The notes under the pieces are model-generated. The model had not been told where the DNA came from. It worked only from the letters and a program-made list of their open reading frames with translations, and ran no database searches. The position numbers were made by a program, and so were the translations under genes. Positions 2,253 to 38,877 of a stretch of DNA of 42,124 nucleotides are shown here, piece after piece; position 1 is the first letter of the stretch; each line of letters begins with the position of its first letter. The stretch is from a virus. Location of the stretch: positions 1 through 42,124 of the IMG/VR virus record IMGVR_UViG_2124908038_000006; one strand, 5' to 3'.

Positions 2253-2558
2253 ATGATTTTCAATATTCCGATCAGTTTCGAGCTTTACGGAATCAAGTAC
2301 AACGTCAAGTTCGTAGATAACTTGATTTCCGAAGGCGACAGGACAGGCGAAACGTCATATAGATTCGATGAAATACGAATTCAAAATATTCTAAAAGGTT
2401 TTGAAACAAAACCCGATCGACAAGAGCAAATATTTTTCCACGAGCTTACACACGTAATTCTTTACGCTATGCAAAATAAGCTTCGATCAGACGAAGTCTT
2501 CGTAGACGTATTCGCATCGTTATTGCATCAAGCATTGACGACTATGGAATTCAAATGA
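2253..2558 (+). CDS. Small HExxH metallopeptidase-like protein
   Basis: The frame opens at 2091, but the ATG at 2253 has AAGGAA nine bases upstream and begins the conserved-looking part, giving 101 residues. HELTH at residues 63-67 is a canonical zinc-metallopeptidase motif (two His ligands and catalytic Glu). A downstream Glu at 81 in a helical segment could be the third ligand. Similar one-domain HExxH proteins are common next to phage packaging genes, with unknown targets. It is the first gene of the late block and overlaps TerS by four bases (ATGA). Zinc-protein assignment is fairly sure, actual proteolysis is not. Confidence 0.7.
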   Translation: MIFNIPISFELYGIKYNVKFVDNLISEGDRTGETSYRFDEIRIQNILKGFETKPDRQEQIFFHELTHVILYAMQNKLRSDEVFVDVFASLLHQALTTMEFK

Positions 2559-3034
2559 ACGTTTTATCGGATATGGATGTTGAAGAGCTCGCATTACTCG
2601 CAGATCAGGATTTTAGAGAACAAGTCCAAGTCGAAGCAAGGACGCTTTCCGGTGAAGCTTTCGACACGTATCGGGACGTTATGTCAAGCTCAAGCGATGA
2701 CCAAGCGCGAGTAAAAGCAGCCGATAGAATCCTTTCACTTGCTGGCATTGAAGAAAAGCAAAACATATTGCCATCGGGCGTAAGCGAGGAAGTTTTCAAA
2801 CTAGCTCTAGCCGGCTTAGGCCAGCTGGCTGGAATTGCTAAACTACCCAACGCTTCAACGTCGATATTGAAAAATGTTACTCCGGCCAAGAACGATCCAA
2901 GGCTTATTCCACAACTCGAAATGCCAAAAGACGATTCGCCTATGAATACGAAATCAATAGCAATTGACGATAATGATGCTATACTCAATGTCATTGCAGG
3001 AGAGCGATATGAAATATACGAACGAAAATCATGA
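2555..3034 (+). CDS. Putative terminase small subunit
   Basis: A 159-residue acidic protein with an N-terminal helical half. Residues about 30-66 read as helix-turn-helix-like DNA recognition with the phrase ARVKAADRILSLAGI, which is typical of small terminase and related phage packaging proteins. The C-terminal part is low in secondary structure. TerS binds the packaging site and stimulates TerL. Position near the start of the late block, about 1.5 kb before TerL, supports this, though the two are separated by membrane genes. It is translationally coupled to the metallopeptidase-like gene. Assignment is by context plus a short sequence resemblance. Confidence 0.55.
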   Translation: MNVLSDMDVEELALLADQDFREQVQVEARTLSGEAFDTYRDVMSSSSDDQARVKAADRILSLAGIEEKQNILPSGVSEEVFKLALAGLGQLAGIAKLPNASTSILKNVTPAKNDPRLIPQLEMPKDDSPMNTKSIAIDDNDAILNVIAGERYEIYERKS

Positions 3035-3176
3035 ACCAGAAGTAGACGATTTTTTTCCTCTAGAACTCGAACGATTGCCAAAGTCCGAGAATCAGTTCTC
3101 GGATAATGGTTTTGAAATCAAGTCTAAGTCTAAGTCCAAGTCTAAAGGAGACTCAAATGCTAAAGTTTCTAGGTAA
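3009..3176 (+). CDS. Small acidic protein with Ser-Lys repeat tail, 55 aa
   Basis: The ATG at 3009 follows AGGAGA and lies inside the end of TerS (26-bp overlap, different frame). The first part is acidic and the C-terminus carries four Ser-Lys dipeptides encoded by a near-perfect AAGTCT repeat. The repeat runs into the ribosome site of the next gene, which overlaps this one by 20 bases. No family recognised. It could be a charge-bipolar linker or accessory protein, or simply a leader. Confidence 0.45.
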   Translation: MKYTNENHEPEVDDFFPLELERLPKSENQFSDNGFEIKSKSKSKSKGDSNAKVSR

Positions 3177-3402
3177 CGAGATCGTTTCGTTTTACGCTTC
3201 AGTCAAGAAGTTCGTCATTGCTTTTTTTAGCGCTTTCTATGATCATAGCGGAAAGCTTTCCTGGAAACGCATAAGTTCCGCGAGCGCGCTGTTTATCGGC
3301 ATTAGGCAAATTATTATTGCTCCTAATGATCATTTTGGAATCCTCGTTTGTTTCGTCTATGCGCTCGTGATCATGGTAATCGCTGCGATTACGAATAGCT
3401 AA
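3157..3402 (+). CDS. Membrane protein, holin candidate, 81 aa
   Basis: The ATG at 3157 has GGAG six bases upstream. The product has a basic middle and hydrophobic segments at about 38-52 and 57-78, consistent with one or two transmembrane helices, and a short polar C-terminus. Size and position close to spanin-like genes fit a class II or III holin, which would control timing of lysis by permeabilising the inner membrane. A second small membrane protein at 3666 is an equally good candidate. The assignment is inference from topology and neighbours. Confidence 0.5.
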   Translation: MLKFLGNEIVSFYASVKKFVIAFFSAFYDHSGKLSWKRISSASALFIGIRQIIIAPNDHFGILVCFVYALVIMVIAAITNS

Positions 3403-3413
3403 AGGAGAATCGT

Positions 3414-3662
3414 ATGCACTATCGAAATGGAAGAGAAGCTAAGAACGGAGACAAGATTGTATCGTTAGGGTTTAACGGATCGAACATCGTAGCGTTTGGC
3501 GTACTCTATGATGCGGTTCCGGGCAACGATTATTGCAATGGAAACATCGCGAGCGCACAAGCGTCGAAAGAGGGAGCTTGCCTTTGCGACTGCCTCCATG
3601 TCGACGACCTAGCAGCGATACTCGCCGAGAAGGGACTCGATAAGCGTCCCGACGGAAAGTGA
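3414..3662 (+). CDS. Small phage protein of SH3-like appearance, 82 aa
   Basis: The gene has a good ribosome site (AAAGGAGAATCGT before ATG). The opening, with a short beta-rich segment of the type YRNGREAKNGDKIV, resembles a widespread family of small phage proteins thought to adopt an SH3-like barrel, of unknown function. Two cysteines (ACLCDCLH) lie near residue 60. No enzymatic motif is visible. Confidence 0.6.
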   Translation: MHYRNGREAKNGDKIVSLGFNGSNIVAFGVLYDAVPGNDYCNGNIASAQASKEGACLCDCLHVDDLAAILAEKGLDKRPDGK

Positions 3663-3665
3663 AAT

Positions 3666-3941
3666 ATGACGATAAAAAATCTGATCGCGCCGTTTTGCGA
3701 CGAGGACTTCGATTTGGATATATTCCGAATCGTTGGCTTTATCGCATACTCCGGTGCGATCGTGATTGCTTTCAAAACTGTTTCTCTTGCGTTAACAGAA
3801 CTTCCGACAGAAAAGCTAGCTATCGTCGCGGCATTGGTAATATCGCTCTCAACCGTCGGAACGTTGCTGTTTTCTCAAGCTAGAAAAGGTGACGCGTCTC
3901 GTATTGACGCAAGAAACGATACGTATTCTAAGGAGCCTTAA
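3666..3941 (+). CDS. Two-helix membrane protein, holin candidate, 91 aa
   Basis: Two clear hydrophobic segments (about residues 20-42 and 51-70) are separated by a short polar loop, and a charged tail follows. This is the topology of a class II holin or a holin-like accessory protein. Its stop codon overlaps the start of the next gene (TAATG), and its last bases provide the AAGGAG that serves the two overlapping spanin-like frames, so the three are probably made together as a lysis cassette. Homology was not recognised. Confidence 0.55.
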   Translation: MTIKNLIAPFCDEDFDLDIFRIVGFIAYSGAIVIAFKTVSLALTELPTEKLAIVAALVISLSTVGTLLFSQARKGDASRIDARNDTYSKEP

Positions 3942-4480
3942 TGTGCTTAAAAGAGTTTTACCCTTTGCGCTCGCGTTTGCTCTTGGTGCTATTATCGCTT
4001 TTGGCATTGTATTCTATGCCACAAAAGACTCTGGCGCAAAGCTCAACGCAGAACTTAGTTCTACCCGAGCAAGCTTGGAAGACGCTGCACGACATGTCGA
4101 ATCCCTTGGTAACGAACTACGATCAGTATCAAAGCAGCTTGAAGTCGCAAATGGATATGTTGCAAGTCAAAAATCAACAATCGATGGATTACATAATAAC
4201 GTTAGAGAAGGACAACGAATCTCTAGCGGAATCCTTGATGATATTGAAAACGCAGGAAGCGACTTCAGAAAGCAACTTGTTGCATATACAAACGGCTTTG
4301 AAAGCCTCTACGAGTTCTACAATAAAGGCTCAAAGTGAAGCAAAGGCATTAGAAATGCGTATCGGTCTATGGAAGACAATCGGAATTAGCTTTGGACTTG
4401 GCCTTGGATCAATTGCTGTTTACGAAATCGGTCATAACGATTGGTCTCTAGGATCGATTAAGTTCAAAAAGATATGGTAA
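3941..4480 (+). CDS. Signal-peptide coiled-coil protein with C-terminal membrane helix (spanin-like)
   Basis: The 179-residue product has a basic N-terminus, a hydrophobic stretch (13-24) and a plausible signal-peptidase site near LAQSS (31-35). A long polar, helix-forming coiled-coil region (about 60-140) and a hydrophobic segment (about 143-163) before a basic tail follow. That puts the coiled coil in the periplasm, tethered by its C-terminus, as in phage lysis accessory proteins. No lipobox cysteine is seen, so it is not a standard o-spanin or u-spanin. It shares AAGGAG (3930-3935) with a second frame starting two bases later, and the two genes overlap for 396 bases. Coding character is good in both frames. 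Confidence 0.6.
   Translation: MCLKEFYPLRSRLLLVLLSLLALYSMPQKTLAQSSTQNLVLPEQAWKTLHDMSNPLVTNYDQYQSSLKSQMDMLQVKNQQSMDYIITLEKDNESLAESLMILKTQEATSESNLLHIQTALKASTSSTIKAQSEAKALEMRIGLWKTIGISFGLGLGSIAVYEIGHNDWSLGSIKFKKIW
3943..4338 (+). CDS. Membrane-anchored coiled-coil protein, i-spanin (Rz)-like
   Basis: GTG at 3943 lies seven bases after AAGGAG and yields 131 residues. An N-terminal membrane helix (about 6-26) is followed by a long polar coiled-coil region. This is the architecture of an inner-membrane spanin subunit, which bridges the periplasm and helps fuse inner and outer membranes at lysis. The open frame extends upstream to an ATG at 3889, but that start has no clear ribosome site and would overlap the previous gene. 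The gene is read in a different frame from the 179-residue gene starting at 3941, with which it overlaps along its whole length. Which member of the pair plays the o-spanin part is unclear, since neither has an obvious lipobox. Confidence 0.55.
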   Translation: MLKRVLPFALAFALGAIIAFGIVFYATKDSGAKLNAELSSTRASLEDAARHVESLGNELRSVSKQLEVANGYVASQKSTIDGLHNNVREGQRISSGILDDIENAGSDFRKQLVAYTNGFESLYEFYNKGSK

Positions 4481-4485
4481 AATAA

Positions 4486-6282
4486 TTGAAAACGTACAAG
4501 CGAATCGCAAACGATGACGGAAGTATCGCAACTTTCGAAATTCCGAAACACTTTGCGATTCGGTCTCATTCCGAAGCTCCGGATTTTCCGAATTTCGAAA
4601 AATCTCAGAAACTCATAGTCGACTTATTTTCAGATATTACTTCTTCCCATCCTACGACTAACGTTCGATCGACGTTGGACTTAATGCGCCAAGCGGGTTT
4701 AGTAAATCTTTGGTTTTTTCTAAAGGTAATCGCAGGCGCATATGGTCCGTATTCAGACTTGGACTCGGAACTTAATCTCGATATGGCAAACTGGCGACAA
4801 AGCGATGCGTGCATGTCGCCTGGAGCTAGATTTATCGCGCTTATGCCTAGAGGATTTAGAAAATCGACCGTTTTCTCTCACGGCGCTGATGCTTGGGAGC
4901 TTACACGAGACGGTAATCACCGAATACGCATAGTAAACGCGATCATATCGCGCGCCGAAGGATTCAAGTACTTAGTTCAAAGAACGATTGACTCGAATCC
5001 GCTTTACGCAGCGTTATATGGCCCCGGTTGGACTATGCCTGATAACTCTTCGATACCTTCGCGAGTTCCGATACCTAACTCGAAACATTGGAACGACGAA
5101 GAAATGGTCATGCCGACAAGATTGAAGTTCGCTCCGGAACCGAGCATTAAATCCGCGGGTGTTACTGGTTCTGGAGAAGGCGATCACCATACACTGATGA
5201 ACATTGACGATCCAATTGGGCTTGACGCTATCGATTGGCAATATCAAGCGACAGCCATGATGGAAAACGCCAAGAAATGGATGAATACGAACTTAAGCGC
5301 GTTGCTTATAATGCCCAAGAAAGACCGAATTGGGATCGTTGGAACTCGCTATGCGCAAGATGATTGCTATGCGCCATTCGTTTCAGACGCAAAGGATGTC
5401 GTCGGAGTCCAAGACGAAGACACGGTTCCAGTTCCCGGTGGCACTTGGTCTGTTTACTATCGACTTGTTCAAGAAGAAGGGCAAATGATTGCGCCGGAAA
5501 TCATTGACGAAGTTCAACTGTCGAAGATGGATGCTTGGACAGCAGCGTTGCAATATTGGAACAAGCCGCAAAAATCGGGCATAAACGAGTTCATGAAATA
5601 TGTCATAAAGCCTTGCAGACTGTTTCACGATGAACGCTCGAACTTGTTTCTGATATCATTTCGAGACGAGATAAGTGACGAAGTCAAAACACTCAATGCT
5701 GCATCGTTAACAGGACTCATATCGACCGATGCGGCGAGTACAGACCGTGGAATAAGCGTGCTTACGTCAAGAACAAGTGTTGCGGTTCACTTTATGGATG
5801 ACCAAAATCGCGATTTTCGGGTCTGGAGCAGGGTCGGATATTTGACTATGGATCAAGTTTTCGACGCCATATTCGAAGCGTGGAATGCTTTTCCAGGCTT
5901 GATTCAAGGTACCTTGTTCGAGACTAACGCGATGCAAAAAGGTCTATATCAGCTTCTTGACAAAGAACAGGACAAGCGCAAAATGTACATAAACTTACGC
6001 GAAGCACCGGCTAAAGGGGACAAGGTTGCTCGCATTCGAGCCGTACTTGGATGGCATTTTGCCCAAGGATTGATCTACGCAACACCGGAAGCAAGCATCG
6101 AGTTACGCCAGGAAAAGGATTCTTTCCCGTCAAAACATCTGGATGTTCTTGATGAGACCGAAAAAGCTTTATCTTGGATGAAACGACCGGCTAATGTAGA
6201 AGAAATAGAACTAGCGAACGAGGCTGAAATGGAACATATGATGAATATGACCGAGAACGATAACGCATTTGGATATTTTTAG
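4486..6282 (+). CDS. terL: Terminase large subunit (packaging ATPase-nuclease)
   Basis: A 598-residue protein of usual TerL size. The ATPase domain has a Walker A-like PRGFRKST (about 121-128) and a Walker B ending in IDD (about 240-242). The RNase H-fold nuclease half has an STDAAS strand with the first acidic residue near 415 and further acidic residues in the C-terminal third (DVLDETEK near 552-559). TerL powers DNA entry through the portal and cuts the concatemer. The start is a TTG at 4486 after weak ribosome sites, six bases after the spanin-like gene; the unusual start may hold expression down. The portal gene follows after eight bases. Confidence 0.9.
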   Translation: MKTYKRIANDDGSIATFEIPKHFAIRSHSEAPDFPNFEKSQKLIVDLFSDITSSHPTTNVRSTLDLMRQAGLVNLWFFLKVIAGAYGPYSDLDSELNLDMANWRQSDACMSPGARFIALMPRGFRKSTVFSHGADAWELTRDGNHRIRIVNAIISRAEGFKYLVQRTIDSNPLYAALYGPGWTMPDNSSIPSRVPIPNSKHWNDEEMVMPTRLKFAPEPSIKSAGVTGSGEGDHHTLMNIDDPIGLDAIDWQYQATAMMENAKKWMNTNLSALLIMPKKDRIGIVGTRYAQDDCYAPFVSDAKDVVGVQDEDTVPVPGGTWSVYYRLVQEEGQMIAPEIIDEVQLSKMDAWTAALQYWNKPQKSGINEFMKYVIKPCRLFHDERSNLFLISFRDEISDEVKTLNAASLTGLISTDAASTDRGISVLTSRTSVAVHFMDDQNRDFRVWSRVGYLTMDQVFDAIFEAWNAFPGLIQGTLFETNAMQKGLYQLLDKEQDKRKMYINLREAPAKGDKVARIRAVLGWHFAQGLIYATPEASIELRQEKDSFPSKHLDVLDETEKALSWMKRPANVEEIELANEAEMEHMMNMTENDNAFGYF

Positions 6283-28045: not shown

Positions 28046-29512
28046 TTATTTCTCCTCGCCTTCGGTTCCTAGCCAACGCTCTCCACACCATTTGTATATT
28101 TCCTTAGTATTTGTACTCGGATAGCTTCGTATAGATCCATTCAATAATATCTCGATTTTGCCTTCTTCACTGAGCATCGTCAAGCCTTCTCGTAGCTCGG
28201 CAGCAGTAAACTTACCATGACGTTGGAGCTTTATGCGTTCAAGCTCATTCCGCGTTCGGATGTATTCCTCAAGTCTACCGATAAACGGTTTCATGTCGCC
28301 CTCGAATCCTCGGACCATAGGCAATGCTTGGAACCAAGTTTTCTTGATAATCATAATCGCATCTTTTACATCTTGAAGATCGATGATTCTATCTCTCGAA
28401 TCGTATCGTTGTACTCGAAGCAATAACGCAACCTTTAGCACAAGAACGTTTACTCGACTTTTCAATCCTTGATATTGCGAATCGGATTCGAGCTCGTCTC
28501 GCCATCGATCATACCAGCGATTATAATACTCATCTGCATCAGGCGACATATCGAACTCGCCGATAGTATTTCGAGCTATCCACTCAAGACGTTTAGATAA
28601 CTCATCTTGCGTCGGGGCGCTGGGAACAGTTCTCGGTCTAGCAAAGCGTCTTCCTTCGGTCTTAGGACAATAGACAAGCACCGTTCGAGATAGAAAACCA
28701 TCGCTTCGTGTGCCTTCATTGAGACTTGATCGAAAGCCAGTAAGCGTTGTTCCGGCAATCAACGTCGTATAGAGATACTTAAGCTCGACTCGCTTACGTT
28801 TTACTGTCCGCCAAGAAAACGGTCGCTCGCAATCGTAAAGAGCTAGAAGATTTTCCATGAGTCCGGTGTTATATTTTTGTTGACCCGCAAACGTAGCGAA
28901 CTCATGCGCGATGATCGCTGCTTCGGAAGTCTTTGAGTACCATAAGGGTCGATTTGTCTTTGGGTCAATTTTGCGCTCACCCTTAGCGTCCTTGAAGTAA
29001 AACCCTTGTACACCTTTTGGCTCCTTAGACTTTGGATGCATACCTTCGAGAAGAGCTTCAGGACTGGCCTTGTCCGCGACGATATTTATAGTTTTCATAA
29101 TTTTGAAATCCGGATCGTCGATAAAATCCACAAAGTGCTCTAGAATCTCAGTTGCGTCATTGATCGCCTCGGTCTTGTGCGCTATTCCTGGAGGACCGAC
29201 AAGGATGCAATAGAAATTGGCCCATAGACGCTTGGGTCCGAACTTTATCCAGGCTTCACGTTTTACGGTCGAAGATAAAATAAACAACGTTGTCCATATC
29301 GTGAATAAAGTTGTTATCTCTTTTCCTCGATGACGGTAAACGCAATCGGTTATAAAGCCTTTTCTTTTTGGCAAAATATCGTCATCCGGATCGGAATTCC
29401 AGAATACGTGTTTATCCTTCGATTCATCGAAGGGAATTGGCGCATCGGCTGCGTTAAGCTTAGACTTTGGCAAGCTTGGCGTTGGCTTTCTTCGTATTGG
29501 TCCACTTTTCAT
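28046..29512 (-). CDS. DUF3987-like replication ATPase
   Basis: A 488-residue protein with a P-loop variant LVGPPGIAHKTEA (about 108-120). A middle region with ALYDCERPFSW is followed by the phrase GTRSDGFLSRTVLVYC, characteristic of the DUF3987 family. The charged C-terminus is helical. DUF3987 proteins are often linked to primase/helicase functions in phages and plasmids. The start overlaps the polymerase palm gene by 53 bases and has only a weak ribosome site (GGTAAG), which suggests coupled translation. A replicative helicase of DnaB type is absent from the window, so this may take that role. Confidence 0.7.
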   Translation of the reverse strand: MKSGPIRRKPTPSLPKSKLNAADAPIPFDESKDKHVFWNSDPDDDILPKRKGFITDCVYRHRGKEITTLFTIWTTLFILSSTVKREAWIKFGPKRLWANFYCILVGPPGIAHKTEAINDATEILEHFVDFIDDPDFKIMKTINIVADKASPEALLEGMHPKSKEPKGVQGFYFKDAKGERKIDPKTNRPLWYSKTSEAAIIAHEFATFAGQQKYNTGLMENLLALYDCERPFSWRTVKRKRVELKYLYTTLIAGTTLTGFRSSLNEGTRSDGFLSRTVLVYCPKTEGRRFARPRTVPSAPTQDELSKRLEWIARNTIGEFDMSPDADEYYNRWYDRWRDELESDSQYQGLKSRVNVLVLKVALLLRVQRYDSRDRIIDLQDVKDAIMIIKKTWFQALPMVRGFEGDMKPFIGRLEEYIRTRNELERIKLQRHGKFTAAELREGLTMLSEEGKIEILLNGSIRSYPSTNTKEIYKWCGERWLGTEGEEK

Positions 29513-30275
29513 AGCTTACCATTTCCCCTAGTGATGCTATTGAAACTTCGATATCGACAGGAAATACGATATCTCTGTTCCAGAGATGACGCGGCTTTTC
29601 CATAATGCTTTTGAGCTTTCTAGCACAAGTGTCAACGTCTTTAATCAAACATTCGATTACGATTGAGTCATGAACCATGGATACAAGCTTCCAGTCTTCA
29701 TGCTTAAGGCACTCTTCGTACATGTCGATTAAACTTTCGTTCGCAATATCGCCAGCAGCAGATTGAATACGAGTATTTATTCCTTCGCGAGCTATCTCTT
29801 CGAACGTTCCAAGAAAAAAGCGCTTTCTTCCAGTTGCTGTGACGCATGTTCGCGTATCGCAAGCGGTTTTGGCCGCTTCCTTGAAACCGGCATTCAATCC
29901 TGGATGGGCTTCAAAGTACTTACGATCGGCTGTTCTAAATTGTGCCATAGTCAAGTTTACTTCAGGAACCTCGGCGCTTACTTTTTCGTATATCCCCCGA
30001 ACTCCGCCACCGTATGACCGACCAAAAACGAATATTTTAGCCGCACGGCGGATTGTTTTCCAGTCCTTATGCGTCTTGTCTATGTTAAACATTACCTTTG
30101 TATTCTCGTCGTGGATGTTTTTTCCTTCGGCGAACATCTTTTGCAACGGTTTGTCGTCAAAGTCAAAGGCCATTACGCGCAATTCTAGATTTGAAAAATC
30201 ACCCTGGACAAAGGCATGATTAGCTTCAGGAACGAATACTTTCTTCGCTTCAGGGGGAATGTTTTGTGCGTTCAT
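29460..30275 (-). CDS. DNA polymerase family A, fingers-palm catalytic part (separate frame)
   Basis: The 271 residues hold all three polymerase motifs. Motif A is GDFSNLELRVMA (about 26-37). Motif B/O-helix is RRAAKIFVFGRSYGG (about 75-89) with the Lys, Phe and Tyr positions kept. Motif C is SMVHDSIVIE (about 212-221). The N-terminal QNIP phrase continues directly from the TGRLAS motif that ends the upstream gene. Joining the frames by skipping one base at the TAA stop would give an uninterrupted polymerase. As read, it starts with ATG one base after that stop (TAACATG), behind a G-rich weak ribosome site. It may be a real second subunit, a frameshift product, or show an assembly error. Confidence 0.85.
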   Translation of the reverse strand: MNAQNIPPEAKKVFVPEANHAFVQGDFSNLELRVMAFDFDDKPLQKMFAEGKNIHDENTKVMFNIDKTHKDWKTIRRAAKIFVFGRSYGGGVRGIYEKVSAEVPEVNLTMAQFRTADRKYFEAHPGLNAGFKEAAKTACDTRTCVTATGRKRFFLGTFEEIAREGINTRIQSAAGDIANESLIDMYEECLKHEDWKLVSMVHDSIVIECLIKDVDTCARKLKSIMEKPRHLWNRDIVFPVDIEVSIASLGEMVSYEKWTNTKKANAKLAKV

Positions 30276-30276
30276 G

Positions 30277-32106
30277 TTACTCGTCCCCGCCTGAAGCTAA
30301 TCGGCCCGTTGCGGTTCCAAATATCTTATACAACGGGTGCACTCGACTATCGGGACCGGTACCAAAATCGGTATAGGTTGACAAAAGCTTTGCCGTTTTT
30401 TGGCGCTTTTCAAACAGAACGAGTACAGAGCGTAAAAGTTCCAGTTCCTCGAGTCTTTTCTTATGCTCTATTGTAGGCTTTCTAAACTTCGAAACCATTT
30501 CAATCTCGGTTGTCGCAGCTAATCGACAGAGTAATAATGCTTTTGCGTCTTTCGAAAATCCTGTCTTATTGCGTTTAGTTTTAGACTTGGACTTAGCCAA
30601 CGGTTTTACCGTATCGTAAAACTTTACTTTAGATTCGAGCTCGGAATACTTTTTAGTGCTCTTCTTTTTACCACAGTTATCAATATCATAACTGTGATAT
30701 TCTTCTAGCCATTTTTGCATGCTTCTCGGAAGTTCTCCATAAAACCAATACGATAAGTGATGCGGGCTTTGAAGACTAAAGTCTTCGGGAAGCTGGCCCA
30801 AAGTTCGTAATTGTAATTCATAATCAGCAAGTTCTTTTTCAAGCTCTTTTTTCCATTTTCTAAGCCTATTTCGATCAAGCAATAGGCCATTGTATGTTAA
30901 TTCAAGCGTAGGGCGGATAAGTCTTAGCGAGTAATTATAATAGATATGCTCTGTCCCGGTTTCTTTAAGGTCTTGCAGAAGCGGTGATAATATTTGATGA
31001 AGTACCACTGAATCTCGGCAATTATAGGTACGTAATTCAATATCAGGCGTTTCGCGCATTCGCGGAAACTTGAGTTTAATGTCTTTCCAGAAAGGCGTTG
31101 CTCCATATATGGAAACGATATATCCGAGATTGTGCGGAAGTTCCGGATGAATAGCGTGGTGAATAAGTAAAACATCATGCGCTATTCTTCCGATATGAAA
31201 ACCGTTAGCTTCAAGAACGCTTACGTCGAATGGCGCGTTCTGATACATAGTTGGACATTTTTCAAGGATGTCAGATAGACAATTCTTAACTCGATTCAAG
31301 TCTCCGTTTTTCCAGTACGGAACAAACCCTTGGGAATAAAACGGAATCGAAAACGCTTCTTCGCCTGAAAGTGCAAGACTCATAACGAATATCTCTGCTT
31401 CGTAATATGTCAACGCCGTAGTTTCGGTGTCGACGCCAAGTAGCGGCTTTCGTTTCAAGATATCTTTTGTTCTTGCTTCGATATCGCGTACAGTCGGAAA
31501 GAGTAAAAAATCTTCCTTTGGTGGAGTGTATCCATTTTGTGCAATATCGACTGCTTTTTCGATATCGTTAACGCATGTGGGCTCTTCGCCCCATTCGCCG
31601 TGAATAATAAAGCTTGGATGAAACGTAGGGATAGACCAAAAAGTGTGTCCTGCGATTTTAGTCTCATAAACGCTTCCCCGAACTTTATGTATCGATCCTT
31701 CGATGCCTAGTGCTGCTGTAGGCTTAGCTCCGAGCGGAACAAGCGTTCGAACGCCAAGATCATAAAGTTTCGATAGCTCTTCTTCGAGCCCTGGTTGGCA
31801 AGATTCAAGAGCTTCTATTCCTTCAGAAGAGTCAAGATTGTTCTCTGGCGGTCGGCAGTTTACTAAGTTTAGCAAATAAGCGTTTTGTCTGTATATTCCG
31901 GCTTTCGCCAAAATACGATCCAGTTCCTGTCCCGCCGAGCCGACGAAAGGATGCCCAAGTTGGTCTTCGTCTTTGCCTGGAGCCTCGCCAATGAAAGCTA
32001 TTCGAGGTTTTTCACTGGCACTTTCCCCTCGGACTTTGTTGCAATACCCAGAAAGTGGACATTCTTTGCATCGGCTCTTTGTTCTTGTTATACGAAGCAG
32101 CTTCAT
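30277..32106 (-). CDS. Uracil-DNA glycosylase (family 4-like) fused to 3'-5' exonuclease and N-terminal part of family A DNA polymerase
   Basis: The ATG at 32106 follows GGAGATAAA and gives 609 residues (an upstream ATG at 32130 is less likely). Residues about 1-200 are a UDG: cysteines 13, 16, 84 and 103 sit where family 4 enzymes bind 4Fe-4S. GEAPG is at 40-44, HPFVGSAG follows, then CRPP at 84-87 and an FHPS motif near 165. Next comes a proofreading exonuclease with DTET, NAPFD and YNCRD motifs, so the active site looks complete. The polymerase thumb follows and ends at TATGRLASGGDE, just before the palm. It would remove uracil and proofread. UDG fused to PolA is known, for example in SPO1-like phages. 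Confidence 0.85.
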   Translation of the reverse strand: MKLLRITRTKSRCKECPLSGYCNKVRGESASEKPRIAFIGEAPGKDEDQLGHPFVGSAGQELDRILAKAGIYRQNAYLLNLVNCRPPENNLDSSEGIEALESCQPGLEEELSKLYDLGVRTLVPLGAKPTAALGIEGSIHKVRGSVYETKIAGHTFWSIPTFHPSFIIHGEWGEEPTCVNDIEKAVDIAQNGYTPPKEDFLLFPTVRDIEARTKDILKRKPLLGVDTETTALTYYEAEIFVMSLALSGEEAFSIPFYSQGFVPYWKNGDLNRVKNCLSDILEKCPTMYQNAPFDVSVLEANGFHIGRIAHDVLLIHHAIHPELPHNLGYIVSIYGATPFWKDIKLKFPRMRETPDIELRTYNCRDSVVLHQILSPLLQDLKETGTEHIYYNYSLRLIRPTLELTYNGLLLDRNRLRKWKKELEKELADYELQLRTLGQLPEDFSLQSPHHLSYWFYGELPRSMQKWLEEYHSYDIDNCGKKKSTKKYSELESKVKFYDTVKPLAKSKSKTKRNKTGFSKDAKALLLCRLAATTEIEMVSKFRKPTIEHKKRLEELELLRSVLVLFEKRQKTAKLLSTYTDFGTGPDSRVHPLYKIFGTATGRLASGGDE

Positions 32107-33903: not shown

Positions 33904-34734
33904 TCACTTATTCTTGACCAATTTCTTTGCGTAATATTTTTCAAACTTAGCATATGAAGGGTCTTCGTGGGCTTCAAGCGGAATGCCCTTTCGCGATCCT
34001 GTGAACTCAACTCCGCGAGATTGGCATGGAGTAAGCCAAAAACTCGTCGAGTTATCTTTATTTCGCTCAATGTAATGTAAATAAATCTCGTCGAAAAAAT
34101 GCGGAAGTCTATTTCCAAGTGCTTGACCGACCATGGATGGAGCTTGATATCTTCGTTGCATGTCGTCTTGCTTGTCAGCGAGCTCGGCGGTCATAACAAC
34201 ATTCATTGGCAACGTCTTTACGAGATCAATGATTGAGAAAAAACGCTGCATAATGAGATTATAATCTTGTAACTGTAATGTTTCCATCTTCTTTCCAGCT
34301 TTGTCCGTATGCGTATCTTCAACGGTGATCTCGTTCGCAAAAAGATCACAAAAGCTCGTTCCGCTGTCGATGATAAAGGTCTTTGGCTCATAACCATAAG
34401 ACTCGATCTCTTTCCACATGTTTCCCTTTTTGTACTTCAGTTCGAGAACAAGCTGACGCAAATCTTGCCATGAGCATAATTCGTCTTCGCCTGTGTCCTC
34501 GGTCCAACGAACAAAGGGAAACACGCATGGATCGACTTTGCAATTTACCGGAACGTCGGAAGCAAGTCCAGCATCGGAATTAGCTATGACTGGATCGGGA
34601 AAAGTCAGGGCAAAATGGGTCTTGCCAACTTTCGAATATCCAACACTTAGTACTCGGACATAAGGCGAGGATTGCTCCGACATTCCTTGTGTATAGCGAT
34701 GGATAGCTTTTGTTTCGGCTTTTTTAGTTGGCAT
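33904..34734 (-). CDS. Sak4-like RecA-fold ATPase (recombinase/annealing helper)
   Basis: The ATG at 34734 has GGAGG in front and gives 276 residues. Walker A is GYSKVGKT (32-39), and Walker B follows as KTFIIDSGTS near residue 120. The size and motif set match AAA_24/Sak4-type phage ATPases, which promote single-strand annealing together with an SSB. The gene overlaps the end of the radical SAM gene by 11 bases. The nuclease partners are the Cas4-like gene (36173) or YqaJ (39848). Confidence 0.78.
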   Translation of the reverse strand: MPTKKAETKAIHRYTQGMSEQSSPYVRVLSVGYSKVGKTHFALTFPDPVIANSDAGLASDVPVNCKVDPCVFPFVRWTEDTGEDELCSWQDLRQLVLELKYKKGNMWKEIESYGYEPKTFIIDSGTSFCDLFANEITVEDTHTDKAGKKMETLQLQDYNLIMQRFFSIIDLVKTLPMNVVMTAELADKQDDMQRRYQAPSMVGQALGNRLPHFFDEIYLHYIERNKDNSTSFWLTPCQSRGVEFTGSRKGIPLEAHEDPSYAKFEKYYAKKLVKNK

Positions 34735-35710
34735 TTTTTCCTCCGTAGTACGAGTTTGCTTTCCAATGTAGTCTTTTTGAAAAGAATTGATTGTAGTAAT
34801 CTCTCTGATACCAGTAATCAGTTCCAGGATCATCGCGGAAGTTAACCTTTCCGCGAAAACCGATACCAGTATAAGCAATAGGACAAGTATCGCATGGATA
34901 ATGGTAAACACCGTGATCTTGATCTATTCTACGTGATTTTATCTTTTCGTTGTTATACAATTCAACTAAGCTATTGTTAAAATCAACCGTTCCGTATGAT
35001 CCTACCATTTCGTTTACGGCTTTATCGCAATAGGCACATATTGCTAGTTGCCCATTCCAGCGAATGACCATAAAGTTATTGTCGAAGTATTGACAGGGCT
35101 CCGTCCGCATGATGTTTGCGTTTTCTCCCATAAGCGCATCCCCGACGACAACGAAGTCAATGTCGGTGTTCGATAGCCAATACTGAACGTACCGCTCGAT
35201 TTCACCGTAGTCTTGGCCCCGTCGGCATATCTTGACGGCAAGTTCGGTCTTTGAAGCAAGTTCTGATTTGAGTTCAAAGAGTTTTCTAAGATTACGTTTG
35301 ATGATCTCTTCATTCGAACCCGGACGTGCCTTTGAAATGTTGCCGCTATTGAATAGGCCGTCAAGCGAGACGATGAGCTGATAGCAACCGGAATTGGGTT
35401 TGAGCAATTCGCATAAGACATCTTCTCTCCAAATGGTCAAGTTTGTCGTGACATAGAAACGACGCTTTTTTTCATTTAGATATTGCATCATTTCTAAATA
35501 TCTAGAATGCAAAAATGGCTCTCCATTGGCCCAAGGAATGATAGTACTATCCGGAGATTCGATGGTTGCGCGATCGATGATAGACTTAAAAAAGTCTACG
35601 TCAATATCGCCTACGGGAAACTTTCCGGTATTGTCAACTGACGGGCAATAACGACATTGGAGATTGCAGCGATTCGTAGCCTCAATAATAATTTGCTTTG
35701 GCTTAGTCAT
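34724..35710 (-). CDS. Radical SAM enzyme with SPASM-like C-terminus
   Basis: The preferred ATG at 35710 gives 328 residues. The CxxxCxxC iron-sulfur motif is at C15, C19 and C22 (TNRCNLQCRYCP). A GEP motif (NGEPF, near 68) and the barrel strands of a SAM radical fold follow. The C-terminal third has five further cysteines (TEPCQYF, CAYC, CDTC), as expected of a SPASM or twitch domain with auxiliary clusters. SPASM enzymes modify peptides, proteins or sugars, but the substrate here is not visible and no precursor peptide gene was found nearby. It overlaps genes on both sides, so it belongs to the recombination operon. Confidence 0.82.
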   Translation of the reverse strand: MTKPKQIIIEATNRCNLQCRYCPSVDNTGKFPVGDIDVDFFKSIIDRATIESPDSTIIPWANGEPFLHSRYLEMMQYLNEKKRRFYVTTNLTIWREDVLCELLKPNSGCYQLIVSLDGLFNSGNISKARPGSNEEIIKRNLRKLFELKSELASKTELAVKICRRGQDYGEIERYVQYWLSNTDIDFVVVGDALMGENANIMRTEPCQYFDNNFMVIRWNGQLAICAYCDKAVNEMVGSYGTVDFNNSLVELYNNEKIKSRRIDQDHGVYHYPCDTCPIAYTGIGFRGKVNFRDDPGTDYWYQRDYYNQFFSKRLHWKANSYYGGKNAN

Positions 35711-35969
35711 CACAATATTCCTCCTCATCTTGTTCGAGTAATTGCATTTCTTTCTTCAAGTCCTCGGCCCAAGATTCAAGCTTAGAGCTATGATCTTCGT
35801 CGAGCTCGATGCCTTCCTCTTCGAGTCTAAGCTTGAAATGTAAAATATCAAAATGAAACTGGTCTACGATCTCGAACTTTTTACTGCGATAATAGCTCTT
35901 GACGTCCTCCTCGGCTAAGTTTGCCTTTTGGGCAATAATTTTATCCAAGTCTTTTATTTCATTGAACAT
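35703..35969 (-). CDS. Acidic helical protein, 88 aa
   Basis: A strongly acidic helical protein with an EEEYCDD end and no recognised domain. Its stop lies within the start region of the radical SAM gene (8-bp overlap), and AAAGGAGTAGGAA precedes its ATG. Possible roles are DNA mimicry or a partner peptide for the SAM enzyme; neither is supported by a motif. Confidence 0.6.
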   Translation of the reverse strand: MFNEIKDLDKIIAQKANLAEEDVKSYYRSKKFEIVDQFHFDILHFKLRLEEEGIELDEDHSSKLESWAEDLKKEMQLLEQDEEEYCDD

Positions 35970-37374: not shown

Positions 37375-37637
37375 TATTTGCGCCTTTCGGCGAGCATGGC
37401 GTCAGCCAACCGATACGAATATTCCGCGATGACATCAGCCGAATCACTATGGATGTTGAAGTATTTAGCAACTGCTACAAGTGCTTGTGCTGCGAAGTAG
37501 TCACGTAAAGTCATTCCAGGTGCGTGCTCGATCCATTCGACACGGCCATCGGGCAATGACGTTGGGGTTGCTCCTCCATACCCATTTACGCCCACAATTC
37601 CCGGATACGCCGGCTCACGATTTACTTTATCGTTCAT
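37374..37637 (-). CDS. Conserved-type small phage protein, 87 aa
   Basis: The C-terminal half (GMTLRDYFAAQAL to DAMLAERRK) matches the general pattern of a common phage/prophage protein of unknown function. The N-terminus is Gly/Pro-rich. AGG-type ribosome site and an 11-bp overlap with the upstream gene are seen. Confidence 0.6.
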   Translation of the reverse strand: MNDKVNREPAYPGIVGVNGYGGATPTSLPDGRVEWIEHAPGMTLRDYFAAQALVAVAKYFNIHSDSADVIAEYSYRLADAMLAERRK

Positions 37638-38766
37638 ATTTAGCCTCCAGCTTTGAGCTTGCTTCGATTAACGCTTTACGATGCGCATTAGATATTTCAA
37701 TTATCTTCAACATTGCGTTGTATGCCCATCGATCGGAAGATATTAGATTTTTGCTCGAGCCTATGTCAGACGAAAGACATGTAGGCATTGTCACAGATTC
37801 TAAGGAAGCTTTATAAAACAAAGCACAAGATTCAATAAGCATAATAAATCGGTCTTTGCGATATTCGCCTTCCATATAGTTATTAACTAAATAAAGCATC
37901 TGAATCGCATAGCCGAGCGAAGTTAGGTTCGTTTGCAATTTCATTCCTGAATAGTCAAGGATAAGCGCGTTTTCGGCCGCGGCAATATTTTGATCTATAT
38001 GCCAATTTTCAAAGGATACTTTGTATTTTCCATCGAGCTGCAATTCAGCCGCGGGCGCGCGCAAAAGCGGCGATACGTATTCTGTTCCGAGCCATCCGCA
38101 ACAATCTATGCCAAGATAGATACGTTTAGTTTCCGAGTTCCCGCAACACATATCAGCAAAGCTTAGCATAGCATTGGCGACAGAGCCTGCCTGAACTATC
38201 CAACGATGAACATCAGGGAAAAGAACGCGCAAAATATCATTGTAGGCTAAATCTGTCGAAGCGAAAAAAGACAAATATGGAAGATAAAAGTACATATTTT
38301 TTCGGTCGAAAATGGACTCTTCTGAATACCAGGATGGATCAGCAGTTACTGGAAGAACTAGAATCCAGTTTTTGGCATCGGAAGGAGACAAGTCACGTAG
38401 GATATCGTATTGTAATGGGTTCGAGTCCGCGACCATAACAACATCGGGCTTTCGATTTTCGACCAGCGATGCTCCGACTGCTGTCGGACCGCAAAATATT
38501 GCTATATTCGGATCTTTAGGTATATTCTTTACGATGTTCGTAACTGAAGGTCCGGAGCCGAGAACGACAATAGACTGTTTATCTTCGAGTTTTTCGCAAA
38601 GCTTCTCAATGCTTTGCGGAACAAAGTTAGCTTTAATCAACGCACGAGCATTCGTAAACCATGAAGCGAGAAAATGCCGCATAGCCTCTTCAGTTACTTC
38701 GCCCGCGTGCTCGTTCCAAGCGTTGATTGAAGCGTTTTCAGAATCAGTAAGCTTTCCGTTTTCCAT
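37627..38766 (-). CDS. DUF115 / MptE-like protein
   Basis: The ATG at 38766 gives 379 residues. A nucleotide- or sugar-binding motif VLGSGPS near residue 68 is followed by alternating strands and the phrase PDVVMVADSNPLQYD, as in DUF115 proteins. Those include 6-hydroxymethylpterin diphosphokinase MptE and the Maf-type factors that modify surface glycans. The C-terminal third is helical. What it modifies here is unknown: DNA base, phage glycan or host surface are possible. It is the first gene after the candidate terminator at 38852-38877 and presumably starts its own transcription unit. Confidence 0.65.
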   Translation of the reverse strand: MENGKLTDSENASINAWNEHAGEVTEEAMRHFLASWFTNARALIKANFVPQSIEKLCEKLEDKQSIVVLGSGPSVTNIVKNIPKDPNIAIFCGPTAVGASLVENRKPDVVMVADSNPLQYDILRDLSPSDAKNWILVLPVTADPSWYSEESIFDRKNMYFYLPYLSFFASTDLAYNDILRVLFPDVHRWIVQAGSVANAMLSFADMCCGNSETKRIYLGIDCCGWLGTEYVSPLLRAPAAELQLDGKYKVSFENWHIDQNIAAAENALILDYSGMKLQTNLTSLGYAIQMLYLVNNYMEGEYRKDRFIMLIESCALFYKASLESVTMPTCLSSDIGSSKNLISSDRWAYNAMLKIIEISNAHRKALIEASSKLEAKYER

Positions 38767-38851
38767 TATCGCATCCTTCCTTTCTCGTTTGCGTTTATGA
38801 TTCGTCGAGCATAAGCTACAGTTGACTCGGGCACATTTGTTATTCGGCCGC

Positions 38852-38877
38852 AATTATAAAACCAGAGCGCACGCTCT
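38852..38877 (-). terminator. Candidate intrinsic terminator after the lysozyme gene
   Basis: On the minus strand an inverted repeat AGAGCG-CGCTCT (38864-38877, the first base overlapping the stop codon) is followed by GGTTTTATAATT. The stem is short, with a 2- to 4-nt loop, and the U-tract is interrupted, so efficiency is uncertain. It coincides with the jump from GC-rich to AT-rich DNA. Confidence 0.5.

Follow-up and report, generated by a model that had tools for sequence, protein, structure and literature searches.

Family A DNA polymerases are among the best-studied enzymes, and their TGR..QN loop grips the primer end. In the T4-like Aeromonas phages 25 and 44RR, the split PolB chains encoded by genes 43A and 43B co-purify with activity (PMC2988022); nrdA of Aeh1 is split by mobE, and the T4 topoisomerase gene 60 by mobA (PMC2988022). 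Genes 43A/43B and Aeh1 nrdA are the closest by mechanism to the locus reported here, which lies in a 42,124-nucleotide stretch of viral DNA (hereafter the window) and is shared with five related viruses (with the window, the clade). As in the clade, 43A and 43B divide a replicative polymerase between two genes with a mobile endonuclease or a spacer in the gap, although theirs is a family B enzyme with another break point, whereas ours belongs to family A. In Aeh1 nrdA and T4 gene 60, insertion of a homing endonuclease also left a working enzyme in pieces, but the enzymes are different ones.

Within family A, the polymerase of MEP401 and MEP402 (Zobellviridae; PMC10580990; split loci L032:6111-8221 and L033:6651-8762) is likewise divided over two ORFs, which a small ORF separates, and where the authors suspected an intron (PMC10580990). 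Their cut lies between the whole TGRLSS..NLQNF and motif A, some 20 residues downstream of the break in the clade, and therefore looks like a separate event; unlike in the clade, the polymerase has no UDG domain, and one kind of small gap ORF is found in the two isolates. Polymerase genes also carry group I introns with HNH endonucleases at site 674 (PMC3428280, PMC11878797), those of SPO1, SP82, Bastille and Pf-WMP3 having been placed there in E. coli numbering (PMC3428280). These introns share with the clade the site, the enzyme family and the HNH endonucleases, but their RNA is spliced to give one protein, whereas no intron was detected in the clade and the window has no insert. A further comparison is offered by vir526 (Caudoviricetes sp., BK063670; host given as Methanomicrobiales), for which no paper was found: it has the same UDG, exonuclease and PolA arrangement followed by the same primase family, but its polymerase is one unbroken gene of 859 aa, about 36% identical to that of the window. 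A two-ORF family A polymerase was thus already known from MEP401/MEP402, from which the present locus differs as a seemingly independent and stable division of PolA that falls at the intron site and has a slot for exchangeable cargo; no earlier report of a PolA split at site 674 with a cargo slot was found in open-licence papers.

Two ORFs for one polymerase in the window

Positions 29460-32106 of the window (minus strand, as for all window features given here) hold two ORFs, the first encoding a UDG-like domain, exonuclease and polymerase N-half, and the second the polymerase C-half. The N-half (609 aa; 30277..32106) runs from an ATG at 32106, a start backed by MKLFRITRTKS in the relatives, to a TAA at 30279-30277, with TATGRLASGGDE as its last residues. 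It contains a UDG-superfamily domain (PF03167; 31597..32013; E=7e-25), which also matches solved family 4-type UDGs by profile, a 3'-5' exonuclease with proofreading motifs I-III (DTETT, NAPFD and YNCRD; 31012..31431), and the thumb. The C-half (271 aa; 29460..30275) has its ATG at 30275 and its stop at 29462-29460; it begins with MNAQNIP and carries the fingers and the remaining palm, including motif A (GDFSNLELR; 30177..30203), motif B or O-helix (RRAAKIFVFGRSYGG, including RRAAKIFVFG; 30006..30050) and motif C (MVHDSIVIE; 29652..29678). The commoner form of motif C is HDE; in the window and in all five split relatives it is HDS.

The DNA_pol_A profile (PF00476) matched with its first part in the N-half and its remainder in the C-half (E=7e-36 for the latter), parting at about 123|124 in the window and at 124-127|125-129 in the relatives. 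Motifs A, B and C and the Pol I fold place the enzyme in family A, and the N-terminal UDG and exonuclease in the polymerase chain place it with the UDG-fused phage polymerases (PHROG 17, SPO1-like). The coordinates, motifs and junction given in an earlier note on this DNA were all recovered, and the proofreading and polymerisation motifs that it described as intact were all found (exonuclease I-III, DFSNLELR, RRAAKIFVFG and VHDS).

The two ORFs meet at TAACATG (30273..30279), that is, the N-half stop, one base and the C-half start, at the position of Pol I site 674|675; the letters across the junction are GGCGGGGACGAGTAACATGAAC (longer form, GAGTAACATGAAC). No cargo gene lies in this gap. A GGGG run is located about 10 bases upstream of the C-half start, and no strong Shine-Dalgarno sequence was seen before the C-half in the window. 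When TAAC is read as one step, a continuous polymerase of 881 aa results, in agreement with the earlier note's statement that skipping one base at the TAA restores a single frame; the same TAACATG recurs at 28048-28042, between the next two genes, as that note had also pointed out. The C-half is overlapped by a DNA primase gene (phrog_14296; 28046..29512), in the same order as in vir526. TAACATG is also present at the first junction of MEP401.

A structure predicted for the read-through chain (mean pLDDT 88, pTM 0.83; 21 sequences in the alignment) matched Klenow and Bst Pol I, with a best E of 8e-31 and target-length TM values that mostly fell at 0.79-0.85, and placed the break in a non-helical stretch whose block confidence was 72-85. 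Since the model is of a fused chain, it shows where the break lies rather than how two chains bind. In Pol I, this loop carries R668, N675, Q677 and N678 near the primer end.

Relatives divided at the same point

Relatives were sought in IMG/VR, where single-sequence scans gave one and profiles gave the rest. A scan with the C-half recovered IMGVR_UViG_3300028653_000022 (L001; 75% identical), and a three-row profile recovered four further close relatives (L006-L009), which were confirmed with profiles of either half. All five are metagenomic assemblies, are 63-77% identical to the window per half, and are broken at its break point, in separate genes, which answers the earlier note's question of whether close relatives have the shift. 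A near-identity search of a phage collection with the window gave no match, and the sole match in one scan of genome contigs was a distant polymerase from a bacterial MAG.

The N-halves of the relatives stop 2-10 residues past TGRLSS (GND, GEGEE, GEGQEESESV or GD before the stop), and their C-halves begin with [M/V/L/I]N[A/W]QN[I/L]P. Between the halves lie 0.33-1.7 kb of other genes: several ORFs (1.7 kb) in L001, a single 191-aa methyltransferase-like ORF in L006, a single 111-aa ORF of no known family in L007, an HNH_3 protein in L008, and a protein combining HNH_3 and AP2 in L009; a homing endonuclease (HNH_3) is present in the gaps of L008 and L009 and absent from the window. In all five relatives, the final cargo ORF shares four bases with the start of the C-half, and in L006, L007 and L009 the cargo start also overlaps the N-half stop. 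The exchange of cargo is best seen between L007 and L009, which are 93% (N-half) and 90% (C-half) identical but have unrelated cargo, homology being lost just past the N-half stop and regained at the C-half start. The N-half of L006, whose cargo is methyltransferase-like, is also closely preceded on its upstream side by a gene for an MT-A70 methyltransferase (2076-2600 and 4429-5004).

The C-half starts in the clade are ATG|AAC, TTG|AAT, ATG|AAC, GTG|AAC and twice ATA|AAC, the ATA codons being those of L008 (L008:5001) and L009 (L009:2911), with ATG, GTG or TTG in the others. AUA starts are rare, and the missing NTG in these two viruses is odd; an AUA start could possibly be rescued by coupling through ATAA, and L008 has an in-frame GTG eight codons upstream as an alternative C-half start.

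For the pair L007/L009, dN/dS was 0.079 (N-half) and 0.075 (C-half). For the window and L001, dN was 0.18 (N-half) and 0.20 (C-half), and dS was saturated, so no ratio is given for that pair. These substitution rates indicate strong purifying selection on both halves. Whether built from the N-half or from the C-half, the trees placed the six split viruses together on one side of a branch with 100/100 support, with one change of state between unbroken and split, and a single origin of the split is therefore the simplest reading. Fourteen more distant viral loci, including the vir526 group (L003, L012-L015), read across the break point without a stop; the clade thus has two adjacent conserved ORFs for one enzyme that is unbroken in the outgroups. 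One of the fourteen, L017 (IMGVR_UViG_3300002446_000251; 2289-5723), has a related unbroken-type polymerase into which a Hint intein is inserted in frame at GRLA|C, some four residues upstream of the split site; an HNH ORF occupies a different frame there (4339-4878). The six records, which may be fragments, yielded neither PolB nor PolIII nor a second PolA, and the split PolA is therefore probably the replicative polymerase of these viruses.

Site 674 and the origin of the division

On E. coli Pol I the break maps to P674|N675, and the split therefore coincides with a place where HNH elements are known to land, the insertion site of the SPO1-type intron genes. In SPO1L5, the first exon reads TGRLSSNEP and is followed by an HNH ORF and then by TTTG|AACGCTCAACAA (NAQQFP), the splice point being our reading from the sequence and the stated site. 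As the gathering level of Rfam also misses this intron, Rfam was used in E-value mode with SPO1L5 as positive control. At E<=1 its intron was detected (RF00028, 24.2 bits, E=9e-4), and no catalytic intron RNA was found at this level, which is of limited sensitivity, in the gaps of L001 and L006-L009. The gaps of L006, L007 and L009 are each filled by one ORF that overlaps both halves, and L008 and L009 do not have the terminal G expected before the AAC codon. Together these observations make introns unlikely, least surely in L008 and L009. The proposal that the gaps of the relatives are spliced introns, the window being a special derivative, draws on the shared SPO1/Bastille site, the HNH genes of L008 and L009 and the ATA codon at both of their C-half starts; it also has to accommodate a window that has no insert and yet has a stop and a frame change, and we consider it unlikely.

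As read from six genomes, the polymerase is encoded by two conserved genes with a shared break, both purifying-selected, and the different genes that occupy the gap in five relatives point to a stable two-piece enzyme rather than an error or a frameshift. The earlier note had put forward three options for the junction, of which a two-subunit polymerase with coupled translation is strongly supported, assembly of the subunits being presumed, and the other two have fallen. A +1 programmed frameshift at the TAA, giving a fused protein in the window virus, would need only one skipped base, but it could not join the halves in the five relatives, whose gaps hold genes, no prfB-type slip element is conserved (at the place of a shift site the relatives have those genes), and TAACATG is an ordinary junction of the next gene pair too; this reading is very improbable. 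Just as improbable is that a normal single gene was broken by a wrong base in sequencing or assembly, for which the nearby GGGG run might be invoked: the error would have had to strike exactly where the clade is divided, all of the nearest relatives have two genes there, separated by 0.33-1.7 kb, and a single error cannot account for six genomes. Decay into a pseudogene would fit a gene broken relative to its outgroups, but selection on both halves, the conserved catalytic motifs and the lack of a replacement polymerase in the six records leave it almost no likelihood. Ligation of the two chains after translation by a split intein is brought to mind by the intein of L017; no intein halves were found at the ends of the two chains in the window or its relatives, where the N-half stops 2-10 residues past TGRLxS and the C-half opens at the motif, which leaves no space for intein parts, and the chance of this is minimal.

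The locus thus very probably encodes a two-chain family A polymerase in pieces, which was split once by a mobile element and whose gap became a cargo slot, the two chains presumably assembling. An HNH-carrying mobile element at site 674 would first have broken a single ancestral gene, and the first invader may have been a group I intron or a free-standing homing endonuclease. The gap would then have become a cargo slot, with the window lineage losing its cargo. Both chains would be made from one message, the terminating ribosome restarting on the second chain at TAACATG, and would come together non-covalently as a single Pol I-type replicase. The primer-grip motif would be shared between them, its TGRLxSG half lying in the first chain together with the UDG-like domain, proofreading exonuclease and thumb, and its xNAQNIP half in the second, which would also supply motifs A-C, the fingers and what remains of the palm. 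More tentatively, and with considerable doubt, it can be suggested that an obligate two-subunit polymerase arose from a gene with a group I intron at site 674: the (N)TG that ended the intron, directly before AAC, would have come to serve as start codon for the second subunit, and the intron itself would have given way to an exchangeable slot for genes co-expressed with the polymerase.

A natural series of polymerase genes

If six divergent viruses keep a natural break in the primer-gripping loop under purifying selection, a palm can be built from two chains, and biochemists would have a split polymerase at hand. Members of the family form a natural series of unbroken genes, an intein, an HNH gene in the gap, other cargo and an empty gap, to which the SPO1-like phages add introns at the same site, so that the path from mobile element to split gene could be tested. 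Two PHROG polymerase families cover only the C-part (phrog_2573; 336 positions) or only the N-part (phrog_12241; 502 positions), and further split or intron-broken polymerases may therefore be hidden there. Elsewhere in the window, a radical SAM protein that weakly matches SPASM (34724-35728), an MptE-like protein just at the Pfam cut-off (37627-38853) and, at the window's end, an RNA ligase (PF09414; 40875-42026) were observed.
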